DNA of 64,000 nucleotides from Candidatus Nitrososphaera evergladensis SR1 (GCF_000730285.1 NZ_CP007174.1:1798001-1862000), one strand, 5' to 3'; shown: positions 31,079-41,700, counted from the stretch's first letter. Translations and numbers: made by a program. The notes: generated by a model from the letters alone, not told the origin.

Positions 31079-31442
31079 ACTCATTGTATGAAATATACGC
31101 GCCAAACTTTAAAACCTCTTTCAAGCAGGTTCTCGACAGCCAAAGTTTAGCACGTATCCTATTCAAGCTCGGGGAGATCACTCTTCCCCAGAAGAGAAAC
31201 ATGCGCTACACGGAATAAGCCCAAGATTGAGAAGAATTTTTACTTCTTAAAAATATAACGAAGCTACTATCGAGATTATAATAATTGTACATTGACAGCC
31301 CAAGATACTGGTAATTAGCTTACCTTGGTTCTTTCTATAAAATACCTATATAGTGCCGTGTATATGGCAATGTGGTATGCAATTGCCACTCTGGGCAAAA
31401 GAGGAGAATTCTGATGTTCTATAAGGTATCTGTCCAATTCTA
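31079..31442. other. Intergenic region with possible structured RNA
   Basis: 364 bases with no credible reading frame. A TATA-like actttaaaac at 31106-31115 is followed 25-35 bases later by a weak hairpin (ggggaGATCACTCTtcccc, 31171-31189). A second AT-rich hairpin (agaag-aatttttа-cttct) lies near 31230-31249. These could delimit a small transcript of about 100 bases, but nothing matches a known RNA. Just before the protease gene another TATA-like run, ataaaatacctatata, is at 31337-31352. Confidence 0.3.
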
Positions 31443-34400
31443 ATGGGAATCATTGTATTTTCTGTCTTCGCCAGCGCTAATTCTAGTTTGGCATTTGCGG
31501 TGCCTACTGCGAATCCTGATCCAGAATCCCTCGTCGAATCAAAAGTAGCGATCGAAAGATCTTTTTCCACACCACTGCTTAGGTTTAACGGCGAAACTGC
31601 CGCACAATTAATGCAGAAGATAACCTGGTTTCCAAATGGGACAACCGCGTTATCTGATGACCAAGGCAGCCAATTTACATTCACATTGGATCTCGCCGAC
31701 TCTTCATTTGTACTCTTAAGCAATAGCACAATGATTGATCAGAAAGTGCTTGGAAAAGATCACCAATATGATATAGTGTGGAAGCCCCTTAGAAATTCTG
31801 ATGGTGCGATAACCAAATACAAGTTTGATATCGTCGGAACCAGCGCTAACGGCCATACAATCAAGTTGCTGCTAAGCCCACAGCAAGAAATCACGGTCAA
31901 TGACGATAGCTTCCTATCGCTCTCCAAGAATTATAATTCAAACTCGACTTCTCTGTTTGGTGTTGGACTTGACTGGTCGGATGCTACTTCCGCAGGGCAG
32001 CCGATTGCGTATGACAGCGAAGAGAGGACAATAAACATCCCCGTTGGTAAATCCTACTTTATCGATCCTACTACTATCTCAACGATAACAGCGGTACTTT
32101 CGCCGGGTTCGTCAGATTATTATGAAGGCGAAAGGCGTGAGGTGCGGATTGGAAACGTCCTCTTCATGTTCTACTTTGATGGTTCCAATATAGTGTATAG
32201 ATCTTCTTTGGACTTTGGCGCGACATGGAGTAGCGCGACCTCTTCAGGCTCAGGAGTCATCAACGGCGATGTCCACAGATATACCGTAACGACAGAAAAC
32301 GTTACAGGCACAAATTACGTCACTCTTCTTTATTTCAAGACCTCCGGTTCCAACACAAACTTTTACGGGAAGAGGGGGACTGTTGGTTTGAACACTATCA
32401 CATGGAACAACGAAACCTCCATGTTCTCTGCGCCAAACTTTGCCTCCTGCGGAACGAGCGTATGCGCTGCCAGCGTAGGAGCTGTCGACACAAGCGGCAT
32501 CATGTATGCCGCGTTTAGGTGGATTCCTTCGGGAGCTTCGTCTTACCAGTATCAGATAATGAAATCCGCCAATGGCGGATTAGGATGGAATACGTCGCTT
32601 AGCCAGATACCCGCTGACGTAGGGACTCGTATTGAGATGTTCTTGACGCCACTTGCGTCCGGAAAGATGCTTTTTGGATACATGCGGTATACTACTGATG
32701 ACATAAAATACAGACTATGGGACGGCACTGGATGGTCCGCAGAGAATACAGTTGGCAATATAGGCTCAACGGCTAATACCATCAAGCACGTGTCGGCCGA
32801 TAGTGATGGAGTCAAAAAGGCTTATGTCGCTTACCTTACCGGTGGCAACTCAGGTTCGATAAAGATAGCGAAATGGGGAAACGACGGTTCTTGGCTAGGT
32901 AACGAGACAGCCGATAGTACGCTGTCGCACACACTTCCATCAATCACCATAACAAACGATGGAGTAATTCATGTCTATAGTCTCTCTGGAAACAAGGTTT
33001 ACGACACAACAAAGATCCTTAATTCTTGGCAAACCCCTACAAATCCATTCGGGACAACCTTCACGTCTCCGGCACAGCTTACCTCCGGCTCAGGCTATCC
33101 TATGGCCTTGTGGATAGAAGGTTCATCATCGCCATTTAACCTAAGGTTTGACAGGACTGATTGGGATGTGGATCGGGACGGAATATACAACAACTGGGAG
33201 GTCAATGGGATCGATTCAAACTGGGACGGAACCGTAGACTTTTTACCCTCCTCAAGTCAGGCCCACAAAGACATTTTTGTAGAGATCGACTATATGCAAA
33301 ATCACCAACCAGATTCCGGCGCGATAAATAATGTGACTAACGCATTTGCTAACGCCCCAATCACCAATCCCGATAGTACCACTGGCATCACATTGCATCT
33401 AAACCTGGATGAACAAGTTACCCATAGTGATACAACATCTTGGCCGACTGGATTCAATTCGATTAAGCCAACGCATTTCGGTACGGCAACCGAGCGGGCA
33501 GCAGCCAATCATGACAATATTCTTAATGCGAAGAAGAAAATCTACCACTATAATTTGTGGGTACATAGCATTACTCTTAACGGTCCGAGTGGGGTCGGAG
33601 AGCTACTTGGCAATGACTTCATGGTCTCGATGGGAAGCTATAATGCTTCAAATCCAAGCCAAGACCTTGCGGGAAGCAGGGAGCACCAAGCTGGCACGTT
33701 AATGCACGAGCTAGGCCATAACCTAGGGCTTCATCACGGTGGGGGCGTCGATATCAATTGCAAGCCTAATTACCTGAGCGTGATGAACTATGCTTTCCAG
33801 CTGCCGACATTTGTTTCTGATAGGCCACTCGATTATTCCAGATCCCAATTGTTAACACTCGACGAAATTAATCTCGATGAACTCGATGGAGTATCTGCAA
33901 GCACTCCATCAGGCTTAAAAACAGTTTATGGCAAGCCTGGTGACTTTCCGGTAGTTAGTGACCCTGTACCTACGGGTCAGGGGATCGACTGGAATCGCGA
34001 CGAGTTTCTTGGTGATGATGGTGTGGAACAAAGCATCAACTTTTTCGATATTCCCGATTGCGATAGCTTAGATCTTACATCATTGACTGGATATAATGAT
34101 TGGGCAAATGTCCAGCTCGCATTCACTTCATCCGGAACATATGCCAATGGTACAAGCGTAAAAGTAGTCGACAACGAGATGACAAGGGAAATAGTCCAGA
34201 AGATGCAGCTGATGACGCTTGATACGATTGACCATTTACTGCAGAATGCGAATGCTACATCATTCCGTGATACTAATGATGCTGCCGCCGAGAAGAAAAC
34301 TCTTCATGATGTCCTTGATAATCCGGTTTCTGGCGCAAAAGCCGCTGTTCGCCAAGATAATTATGGGAAGGTTGTAGCTATACTAGAGAGAATTCGCGCA

Positions 34401-34523
34401 AAACTTGACGCCTCAGTCGGAGGTGACCCACACGATGATATGATTGTTAACCAGAAAGAGCAGACGCGCATCCTGCAGCAGTTAGACAATGTCATAACTT
34501 CTTTCAAAAAAGCATGGCAATAA
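31443..34523 (+). CDS. Large secreted metzincin-type zinc metalloprotease
   Basis: 1026 residues. The first 20 (MGIIVFSVFASANSSLAFAV) form a signal peptide. Residues about 40-200 and 210-560 are beta-rich; the latter has repeated 'Asp-box-like' blades (NVLFMFYFDGSNIVYRSS, SANGGLGWNTS), like a sialidase-type propeller. A calcium-binding DVDRDGIYNNWE element follows near residue 575. The protease site is HELGHNLGLHH: His755, Glu756, His759, Gly762, His765, matching the full HExxHxxGxxH metzincin pattern. The Met-turn LSVMNYAF is downstream. After the catalytic unit comes a helical tail. Probably an exoenzyme acting on protein outside the cell; substrate unknown. AT-richer than core genes, suggesting accessory origin. 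Confidence 0.8.
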   Translation: MGIIVFSVFASANSSLAFAVPTANPDPESLVESKVAIERSFSTPLLRFNGETAAQLMQKITWFPNGTTALSDDQGSQFTFTLDLADSSFVLLSNSTMIDQKVLGKDHQYDIVWKPLRNSDGAITKYKFDIVGTSANGHTIKLLLSPQQEITVNDDSFLSLSKNYNSNSTSLFGVGLDWSDATSAGQPIAYDSEERTINIPVGKSYFIDPTTISTITAVLSPGSSDYYEGERREVRIGNVLFMFYFDGSNIVYRSSLDFGATWSSATSSGSGVINGDVHRYTVTTENVTGTNYVTLLYFKTSGSNTNFYGKRGTVGLNTITWNNETSMFSAPNFASCGTSVCAASVGAVDTSGIMYAAFRWIPSGASSYQYQIMKSANGGLGWNTSLSQIPADVGTRIEMFLTPLASGKMLFGYMRYTTDDIKYRLWDGTGWSAENTVGNIGSTANTIKHVSADSDGVKKAYVAYLTGGNSGSIKIAKWGNDGSWLGNETADSTLSHTLPSITITNDGVIHVYSLSGNKVYDTTKILNSWQTPTNPFGTTFTSPAQLTSGSGYPMALWIEGSSSPFNLRFDRTDWDVDRDGIYNNWEVNGIDSNWDGTVDFLPSSSQAHKDIFVEIDYMQNHQPDSGAINNVTNAFANAPITNPDSTTGITLHLNLDEQVTHSDTTSWPTGFNSIKPTHFGTATERAAANHDNILNAKKKIYHYNLWVHSITLNGPSGVGELLGNDFMVSMGSYNASNPSQDLAGSREHQAGTLMHELGHNLGLHHGGGVDINCKPNYLSVMNYAFQLPTFVSDRPLDYSRSQLLTLDEINLDELDGVSASTPSGLKTVYGKPGDFPVVSDPVPTGQGIDWNRDEFLGDDGVEQSINFFDIPDCDSLDLTSLTGYNDWANVQLAFTSSGTYANGTSVKVVDNEMTREIVQKMQLMTLDTIDHLLQNANATSFRDTNDAAAEKKTLHDVLDNPVSGAKAAVRQDNYGKVVAILERIRAKLDASVGGDPHDDMIVNQKEQTRILQQLDNVITSFKKAWQ

Positions 34524-34561
34524 CTACGGGTACAGCCATCTAGAATGAGGATTCAACATCC

Positions 34562-34569
34562 TTTAATAT
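34562..34569 (+). promoter_or_regulatory. TATA box for the secreted beta-propeller gene
   Basis: tttaatat lies 22-29 bases before the TTG at 34591, supporting a leaderless transcript and separate transcription from the protease gene ending 39 bases earlier. Confidence 0.55.
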
Positions 34570-34590
34570 CTAGTTGACGCCTCAGGATCG

Positions 34591-35820
34591 TTGCGAGTCG
34601 CTCTTGCGACTGTGTTCGGCATCTTGTTGTTTGCTCTTCTGTCAGGAGTACGACCTTCTTTCGGTCAGCAGCAGGATGATGATCAGAATTTTGCAAATAT
34701 ATCAGCTGAGCGGGTCATATCTCTTGGGCACACTTTTAGTGCTCTAGATATTGGAATAGACCTATCTGGACAGATCCTCTTCTTAACAGACCGCAGTAAT
34801 AGAACACTAGTACTTTATGACTTAGAAAACAATGTCACGAAGAGCATAGACGTAGAGCATTATACATCTATGGTTGCGGTCGATTCAGCAACCAAGAAGG
34901 CATATGTCACGAACGGATGCGACTGTCCTGCGGCACATGACGTGACTGTAATAGATTATTCTAAAGGAGTCGGATCTGCTAAGGTGGAAGCCACTATCAC
35001 AAACGTGAGCAAAAGAGCATCGCCAATCGCGATCAACGATGACACCGGCAAGATATATGTCGGCTCCAGTTCAAACGCCCTGACTGTGATAGATGGCACT
35101 ACAAACAAAGTTGTCGGCACGATAGGAGAGGGAAGGATCAATGTTTCGGGAATAGACATCAACCCAAAAACCAATCAAGTCTATGTAATTGACAATAGTA
35201 CAACATTGTACAAGATAGATGGCGCAACAAACAAAATTCTTGGCAATATTATGATCGGACTTCCTTCTTCAGCTCCTAAAGAAGGAGGCAACGAAGGAGA
35301 TAGTAGTAAAGGCAGATTAATTCCGACGGCAATTGCGGTTAATCCAAACACGAATGTAGTATATGTCATCAATCAGAAAGTGCCCAAGCCTATTCCACTC
35401 GGAGAAGAAGCGCCTTTGTTTAATACTGCATACCTGGTTGCAGTAAACGGCACGTCCAATACCATAATTAACCCTAACATCGCCACTCTGAATAGTATTG
35501 ATTTCGACATAGCAGTAAACAATGATACGAATACAGTATATGTGCTAGGTCTTCGCAACACCGGACTCATTAAAGTTGATGGTACTACAAACAGTGTATC
35601 TCTCGAGCAGGATTTCTCTGATCTGAAGGATTCCTTTCGTCACGTTGTAGTTGATGAAAGTACGAACAAATTCTATCTGTCAGGCCGGACTGGTATCTTT
35701 GAAGTGTCAGAGAATAACAACAAGGCAAACGCACCAGAGTTTCGTGACTTTGTCATGCTAATACCCGCGCTTGCAATCGCAGCGGCGGTGATAACTACGC
35801 GTTTACTAAGAGAGTTCTAG
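34591..35820 (+). CDS. Surface-anchored YVTN/YncE-like beta-propeller
   Basis: 409 residues. Signal peptide VALATVFGILLFALLSGVRP, then repeats of about 45 residues with the YVTN-family pattern: KKAYVTNG, GKIYVGSSSNALTVIDGTTN, NQVYVIDNSTTLYKIDGATN, NVVYVINQKV, NTVYVLGLRN, KFYLSGRTG. A C-terminal hydrophobic helix (DFVMLIPALAIAAAVITTRL) with basic LLREF end anchors it in the membrane, leaving the propeller outside. Function is probably binding of protein or polysaccharide. It follows the metzincin gene on the same strand; together they may be a cell-surface module. The N-glycosylation sequon N-x-S/T is frequent, as usual for archaeal surface proteins. Confidence 0.8.
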   Translation: MRVALATVFGILLFALLSGVRPSFGQQQDDDQNFANISAERVISLGHTFSALDIGIDLSGQILFLTDRSNRTLVLYDLENNVTKSIDVEHYTSMVAVDSATKKAYVTNGCDCPAAHDVTVIDYSKGVGSAKVEATITNVSKRASPIAINDDTGKIYVGSSSNALTVIDGTTNKVVGTIGEGRINVSGIDINPKTNQVYVIDNSTTLYKIDGATNKILGNIMIGLPSSAPKEGGNEGDSSKGRLIPTAIAVNPNTNVVYVINQKVPKPIPLGEEAPLFNTAYLVAVNGTSNTIINPNIATLNSIDFDIAVNNDTNTVYVLGLRNTGLIKVDGTTNSVSLEQDFSDLKDSFRHVVVDESTNKFYLSGRTGIFEVSENNNKANAPEFRDFVMLIPALAIAAAVITTRLLREF

Positions 35821-40457: not shown

Positions 40458-40527
40458 ACTGAACTAGAGTATTCTTCTAGTGGATACAAACATAAGCTCA
40501 ATAGGCTGAATCAACAAGCAACGTGTG

Positions 40528-41700
40528 ATGCGCCATTCCCTGACAGCAATGGCTCTGTCAGCAGCATTGGTGGCGTTTCTTGTTTTTGCAGGGATGCTTC
40601 AAAACGTCTTTGCGCCTATTCCGCTCATTGAACAACTTCAAGGATACCTTGATCCTGAGACAAAACTGTACGTGGGCATGGGCGAAATCGTCAACTATTC
40701 TGCAGACAGCTATCCTATGGGAAACGTAAAACTGGACCTAGAGTTTCAGGGCGACAATGGCCGCGTGCATTATTCAGAGCCGACCGTAACCAACCTGCTT
40801 CCTGTCAAAGGTGGCTTTAGCATCCCGCCGGGGATGGCTCTGCCGTTTGTCATAGTCTTGAATGATACCAGTCTTTCTTCCAAGGTAAAGTCAATCGAAG
40901 ACGTAGCTTCTCAAACAGGAAGCGGCACATGGAAGCCTGCCGACTTGGTGGTTACGCCCGGCCAAATCCATTCAATATCTGAAAGCGAGTTTGACGGAGT
41001 GAAATACAAGACGTGGGCCATAGAGGGAACAATACTCAACAATTACACCCAGCCTACCACACACGTCTACGTTGTGGCTGGCATACACGAAGGCTACAGG
41101 CTGGTTGGAGTTGCAGGCTACTCGCAAAAGGACAAGCAGCCACTCACGCTAGGTGGGATGGAGAAAAAGAATTTCACACTGTATGCGACGATGCCGGCAA
41201 ACGTCAATCCAGACCGCGTCAACTTTCTCGCCGAATCTGACGATTCTTCAATGATGCGGGACAATTACCTGCCAATCCTGTCAAAGTACAGCGTTAATGG
41301 CGTGCCTGTAGGCTCTGTCGATAATGTTATCATCGATAACAAAACTGTCACTTTTACCGCTGAACTTTCAAACTTTGCAAGAAAGGACGTGGATTTTGAT
41401 GTGGTGTTTCAGGTGCTAAAGGTGCCGTTTAGCGGGCAGTATGGCAACACAATAAACGATGACTTGCTTTTGCAGCAAAGCACCACCGCAGACCTGCAAG
41501 TCCTTCACTCGTCAATAAACGCGCTAGGTACTGCCACGGTTGACTATTCATGGACGGCTGACTCAGGCGGCTACTATGCGTACGCGATTTATGTTGTAAA
41601 TGACTTGGACTCGCCAAAGATGCTTTCGAAACCTTTCATGTACAAGGTGTCCGGCTATCCTCCGCGCTTTTTGGCAAGCGACATGCTGCACGTGAAATAA
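40528..41700 (+). CDS. Secreted hypothetical protein, beta-rich
   Basis: 390 residues. N-terminal signal peptide (LTAMALSAALVAFLVFAGM). The mature part has Ig-like strands such as WAIEGTILNNYTQPTTHVYVVAG and VTFTAELSNFARKDVDFDVV, with repeating Asn-x-Ser/Thr sequons. No catalytic motif, no C-terminal anchor. Similar two-domain secreted proteins of unknown role are frequent in Thaumarchaea. The GTG at 40525 directly before the ATG is an alternative. Starts 70 bases after the cysteine synthase and may share its transcript. Confidence 0.6.
   Translation: MRHSLTAMALSAALVAFLVFAGMLQNVFAPIPLIEQLQGYLDPETKLYVGMGEIVNYSADSYPMGNVKLDLEFQGDNGRVHYSEPTVTNLLPVKGGFSIPPGMALPFVIVLNDTSLSSKVKSIEDVASQTGSGTWKPADLVVTPGQIHSISESEFDGVKYKTWAIEGTILNNYTQPTTHVYVVAGIHEGYRLVGVAGYSQKDKQPLTLGGMEKKNFTLYATMPANVNPDRVNFLAESDDSSMMRDNYLPILSKYSVNGVPVGSVDNVIIDNKTVTFTAELSNFARKDVDFDVVFQVLKVPFSGQYGNTINDDLLLQQSTTADLQVLHSSINALGTATVDYSWTADSGGYYAYAIYVVNDLDSPKMLSKPFMYKVSGYPPRFLASDMLHVK

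Follow-up and report, generated by a model that had tools for sequence, protein, structure and literature searches.

The window analyzed here is a 64,000-nucleotide stretch of the Candidatus Nitrososphaera evergladensis SR1 genome (NZ_CP007174.1:1798001-1862000), and it contains two genes in the same direction, one for a 1026-residue putative metzincin protease and the other, after a 67-base gap, for a 409-residue protein with YVTN/YncE-like propeller repeats. The host genome is a single contig of 2.95 Mb; the paper describing it gives 2.95 Mb, one contig, and 50% G+C, and its main text names neither proteases nor peptidases (PMC4084955). The protease is likewise not described in the papers found by our literature search. 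Sequence and predicted model together give it a signal-like N-terminus, a β-rich domain, a lectin-like propeller, a calcium element, a metzincin domain, and a helical tail, in this order, and its sequence has no anchor of its own. An initial annotation had described a secreted metzincin with a complete HExxHxxGxxH site, a Met-turn, and a calcium-binding element, followed by a propeller gene with a C-terminal anchor. The open reading frame (ORF), both catalytic motifs, the calcium element, and the neighbor with its putative anchor were all recovered in our analysis, but the propeller at residues 228 to 574 of the protease had been overlooked. The features are collected in Table 1.

Table 1. Features of the protease–propeller locus, with positions counted from the first letter of the window.
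Feature	Position	Strand	Evidence
Shine–Dalgarno-like GAGGAG (31401) and 9-codon ORF from ATG 31414 (MFYKVSVQF, then stop)	31401..31442	+	TAA overlaps protease ATG (TAATG)
Putative metzincin protease gene, 1026 residues	31443..34523	+	ORF; Pfam Reprolysin_5 above cutoff; sole catalytic match in own genome
Signal-peptide-like N-terminus MGIIVFSVFASANSSLAFA, AxA-type cleavage, no basic n-region	31443..31499	+	Sequence
N-terminal β-rich domain, residues 36-152	31548..31898	+	Predicted model, low to middling confidence
Lectin/sialidase-like β-propeller domain, residues 228-574	32124..33164	+	VIA, Foldseek; protease-free paralogues in own genome
TSP3-like calcium motif DWDVDRDGIYNNWE (D575, D577, D579)	33159..33218	+	Alignment; TSP3_bac match in 4 relatives
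Predicted metzincin catalytic domain, residues 608-800	33264..33842	+	Predicted local distance difference test (pLDDT) about 90-98 in most blocks; Z 10.7 to adamalysins
Zinc site HELGHNLGLHH (H755, E756, H759, H765)	33705..33737	+	Conservation in alignments
Met-turn CKPNYLSVMNY (M781, Y783)	33759..33791	+	Conservation in alignments
C-terminal helical region, residues 915-1025	34185..34517	+	Predicted model
YVTN/YncE-like propeller protein, 409 residues, N-terminal signal-like segment	34591..35820	+	ORF; NF052280 E 1.7e-11; orthologue beside protease in two other genomes
C-terminal PEF, hydrophobic segment, and R; putative PEF-type anchor signal	35734..35817	+	Sequence; same layout in G042 and G041 orthologues; thaumarchaeosortase in genome

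In an alignment of 74 sequences including bacterial ones, H755, E756, H759, H765, K774, N776, S779, M781, and Y783 were nearly invariant, and the zinc-site and Met-turn residues were invariant among 14 aligned archaeal sequences, a degree of conservation that speaks against a chance motif. The protease scored 27.4 with Pfam Reprolysin_5, 0.4 bits above the gathering threshold of 27, and most of the relatives scanned fell below this cutoff. A first model of residues 566 to 1026, built from 14 sequences, had a pLDDT of 65 and matched the adamalysin TM-1 with a VIA Z of 10.7 (3.7 Å over 166 residues); nearly all the other top VIA rows were metzincins (adamalysins and ADAMs). The second model, which covered the whole protein and was built from 74 sequences, reached a pLDDT of about 90–98 across most of the catalytic domain. 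Foldseek ranked profragilysin first for the catalytic model, and a PDB profile search gave serralysins as the best matches (E 8e-4). The features that define the metzincin clan, namely, HExxHxxGxxH, a Met-turn (SVM781NY) below the zinc, and the catalytic-domain fold, are present in sequence and model. These results support a metzincin fold for the predicted catalytic domain, which is what the initial annotation, naming structure prediction as a check, had supposed. The C-terminal helices (residues 915 to 1025) had structural matches to generic helical proteins only.

Homology search, the other check named for the catalytic domain, yielded a large family. A single-sequence scan of genome contigs returned no relatives; an alignment query recovered them, and one pattern scan with it gave 492 related loci, spread over genomes of bacteria and archaea. 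The best 80 of the 492 came from Acidobacteriota, Planctomycetota, Myxococcota, Actinomycetota, Pseudomonadota, Bacteroidota, Cyanobacteriota, and Nitrososphaerota, among others. A phylum-wide sample contained 28 matching genomes out of 397, with every strong match in the Nitrososphaerales (families f1 and f2); the protease was present in 15 of 70 genomes of the window's own family and had no match in phage records. The catalytic module is thus a member of a large bacterial–archaeal family with the signature GLxHGG...KPNYxSVMNY, and no curated Pfam or NCBIfam model fitting this family was found, the Reprolysin, M10, M66, and archaemetzincin models scoring near or below their cutoffs. The part preceding the catalytic domain varies in the bacterial members and consists of PD40, RCC1, NHL, FG-GAP, or BNR propellers, β-helices, or DUF4114; such interchangeable N-terminal repeat modules match the expectation for a targeting module.

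In a maximum-likelihood tree of the family, the root of which is not fixed, 57 of 58 bacterial rows formed one starred set (Shimodaira–Hasegawa-like approximate likelihood ratio test 96), and the archaea fell outside it together with one alphaproteobacterial metagenome-assembled genome (MAG). Because this bacterial set excludes the archaea, a recent transfer from bacteria is unsupported; the archaeal proteases would represent an old branch rather than a recent import. The alphaproteobacterial MAG protein clustering with the archaeal metzincins (L065, 3288-6710) reflects either a transfer or a misbinned contig. Separately, a PD40–metzincin–TSP3–HYR protein from a MAG labeled Klebsiella pneumoniae (L087, 3936-7367) looks foreign to that species, and the bin is probably mislabeled.

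The domain that precedes the catalytic module in the window's protease, residues 228 to 574, matched the Photorhabdus lectin PLL2 with a VIA Z of 25.9 (root mean square deviation 3.0 Å over 304 residues) and a bacterial sialidase in Foldseek with an E of 8e-11. Photorhabdus PLL lectins are seven-bladed. The domain contains an Asp-box (SLDFGATW), but sialidase activity was rejected because the FRIP motif is missing, with no RIP tripeptide anywhere in the protease, and because the spacing of its conserved arginines differs from what we take to be that of the sialidase arginine triad. The host genome encodes two more lectin-like propellers that are not joined to a protease, with identities of 47% and 39%. 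One protease-free paralogue in this genome (L028, 6029-9284) has a second frame overlapping its end and may be a frame-broken longer protein. Within the calcium element, D575-x-D577-x-D579-G (DxDxDG), D575 and D577 were invariant among 55 aligned N-terminal parts, and TSP3_bac matches were found in four relatives of the protease; this predicted calcium site is a hallmark of the protease family.

The neighboring protein scored 43.5 bits with the YncE equivalog model NF052280, against a cutoff of 400, and this match covers the repeats only; NF052280 and TIGR02276 gave partial repeat matches in the YVTN propeller proteins. In two other genomes of the genus, G042 and G041, a YVTN propeller homologue likewise lies downstream of the protease gene on the same strand, and the pairing noted in the initial annotation is thus kept beyond the window. 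Identities to the window were 76% (protease) and 55% (propeller) in G042 and about 30% and 28% in G041, where the protease stop and the propeller start overlap as ATGA. No further gene was found to be common to the three loci, apart from a flanking ORF that weakly matched a remote region of the window. All three propeller orthologues end in PEF, a hydrophobic segment, and basic residues. The thaumarchaeosortase model TIGR04297 scored 382 bits in the host genome, against a cutoff of 250, and each of the seven good genomes in the genus has this enzyme. A PEF(G)-type tail is present on several other archaeal proteases of the family, one of them above the PEFG-CTERM cutoff (35 versus 25 bits). This points to a putative anchor on the partner propeller, in place of one on the protease, in the lineage to which the window belongs. 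The G042 locus also contains a 1.25-kb single-copy insertion (L026, 7893-9141) with a 236-residue ORF on the opposite strand and gene fragments; a known mobile element was rejected as its identity, since no transposase-like ORF was seen, the insertion is single-copy in G042, and it has no match in the host genome of the window. Elsewhere in the window, positions 40525-41700 encode a 391-residue protein whose N-terminus is signal-like and whose family matches, CARDB-like, are all weak.

From the fold, the conserved active site, the domain order, the gene pairing, and the presence of a sorting enzyme, all obtained by computation, we infer export, activity, a substrate, glycan binding, docking of the two proteins, and a benefit to the cell. 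The gene product would be exported as a zinc-dependent endopeptidase, and its lectin/sialidase-like propeller would hold it on surface or extracellular material, glycosylated or otherwise. The TSP3-like calcium element would join this propeller to the metzincin domain, which would cleave protein there, with H755, H759, and H765 as zinc ligands and E756 as the general base. The neighbor would also be exported, fold as a YVTN propeller, and be held at the membrane via its PEF-type tail, probably processed by the thaumarchaeosortase of the genome. It most likely retains the protease, the substrate, or the products at the cell surface, its anchor standing in for the PEF(G) tail with which the protease itself ends in some archaeal relatives, and the benefit may be peptides or ammonium, or remodeling of the archaeon's own surface layer (S-layer). 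We favor, with some confidence, this reading of an exported, calcium-stabilized zinc endopeptidase that is guided by a lectin-like propeller and acts with a PEF-anchored propeller partner. The initial annotation proposed a pair that could digest or bind external protein, a reasonable inference that is sharpened by the lectin-like propeller within the protease. More tentative is the idea of a split, sortase-linked surface protease, in which an anchorless lectin-guided metzincin docks on the PEF-anchored propeller, soil ammonia oxidizers use it to cut glycoproteins at the cell surface for peptides and ammonium or for interaction with other cells, and the catalytic module is the archaeal branch of an uncharacterized bacterial–archaeal peptidase family.

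Several observations weigh against the favored reading. The identity of the protease propeller to PLL lectins is about 11%, and sugar binding is suggested by fold resemblance only. The PEFG-CTERM model TIGR04296 had no match in the window's propeller protein, despite the visible PEF, transmembrane segment, and arginine. The ATG at 31443 opens a hydrophobic stretch that ends in AxA before VP and is missing a basic n-region, and the better ribosome-binding sequence belongs to the upstream 9-codon ORF, which is in a different frame from the protease and may be a sign of a broken frame or of unusual initiation. The G042 protease is disrupted by the insertion after about residue 708 and by frame breaks near residues 891–935, and the propeller gene is intact; the propeller can therefore persist without an active protease, and the pair appears to be dispensable and patchily kept. 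The start of the window's gene and the broken G042 orthologue would fit a protease gene that is decaying or inactive, with its start broken in frame. We consider this quite improbable, however, because the remaining 1026 codons are open and every catalytic residue is kept, and ATG 31443 with its hydrophobic stretch would in principle suffice for export. At the TAATG overlap, translation of the two frames may be coupled, or the signal peptide may contain a one-base frame break; a one-base change of frame would fuse the 9-codon ORF and the protease into a more usual signal peptide. Export of both the protease and its partner is plausible from their N-termini.

Two further explanations concern the role of the enzyme. 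It might be a free secreted scavenger that degrades environmental protein for nitrogen, with the YVTN propeller unrelated or merely a co-expressed surface protein. The missing anchor on the protease is consistent with such a role, as are stand-alone forms of 500–600 residues without a PEF-anchored neighbor in other Nitrososphaeraceae (L005, L010, and L011), and scavenging was proposed for the exported proteases of a sponge ammonia-oxidizing archaeon (PMC6790972). By contrast, the pair is retained in three genomes with unrelated flanks and the genes overlap in one of them, which makes a free scavenger unlikely. Alternatively, the enzyme could process the archaeon's own surface, in S-layer turnover, maturation of PEF-anchored proteins, or biofilm, and not foreign protein. 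Some relatives have a PEF(G) anchor of their own, which would place them facing the S-layer, and lectin-like propellers paralogous to that of the protease occur without a protease in the same genome, but patchy presence (15 of 70 family genomes) and the broken G042 copy speak against essential housekeeping, and we give this explanation a low probability.

Ammonia-oxidizing archaea of soils are generally regarded as autotrophs that live on ammonia. If the favored reading of an exported zinc endopeptidase working with an anchored partner is true, these organisms would have an endopeptidase tethered at their surface, and protein or glycoprotein could be tested as their substrate or as a surface that they contact. 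The analysis also brings out a large family of peptidases, with 492 loci from one pattern scan, that has a recognizable signature and interchangeable N-terminal repeat modules and for which no curated model was found.

Among known systems, adamalysins and ADAMs (M12B) share HExxHxxGxxH and the Met-turn with the window's protease and are its closest solved catalytic folds, but identity is about 15%, Pfam gave no match to the disintegrin/cysteine-rich architecture of M12B, and the protease carries the GLxHGG...KPNYxSVMNY signature. Serralysins (M10B) and fragilysin (M10C) resemble it as the best PDB profile match and the top Foldseek rank, respectively, whereas neither RTX repeats nor the serralysin model matched the protease in Pfam or NCBIfam. 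Archaemetzincins are also metzincins in archaea, but they are small and have a four-cysteine consensus around the zinc site (PMC3427221), and the protease scored 11.1 bits with their curated model, below the cutoff of 145. Metzincins had been called scarce in archaea in the initial annotation, which is wrong in general because archaemetzincins pass the curated cutoff in 84 of 151 genomes of the phylum; none did so among the listed Nitrososphaerales genomes, including the host, and the Nitrososphaerales carry the extracellular-type metzincin patchily. An exported M72 metalloprotease reported in Candidatus Nitrosospongia ianthellae, a sponge ammonia-oxidizing archaeon, and detected in its metaproteome is likewise large and putatively exported, with adhesive repeats, but it has Hyaline repeats and 2027 residues, and this likeness is by description, so that the two may or may not belong to the same family (PMC6790972). 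The lectin-like domain has the propeller fold of Photorhabdus PLL-type lectins and sialidase propellers, with the Asp-box, and differs from them in its low identity and in lacking FRIP. YncE/YVTN propellers match the repeats of the neighboring protein in part, far below the equivalog cutoff, and to these repeats the neighbor adds a putative C-terminal PEF anchor.

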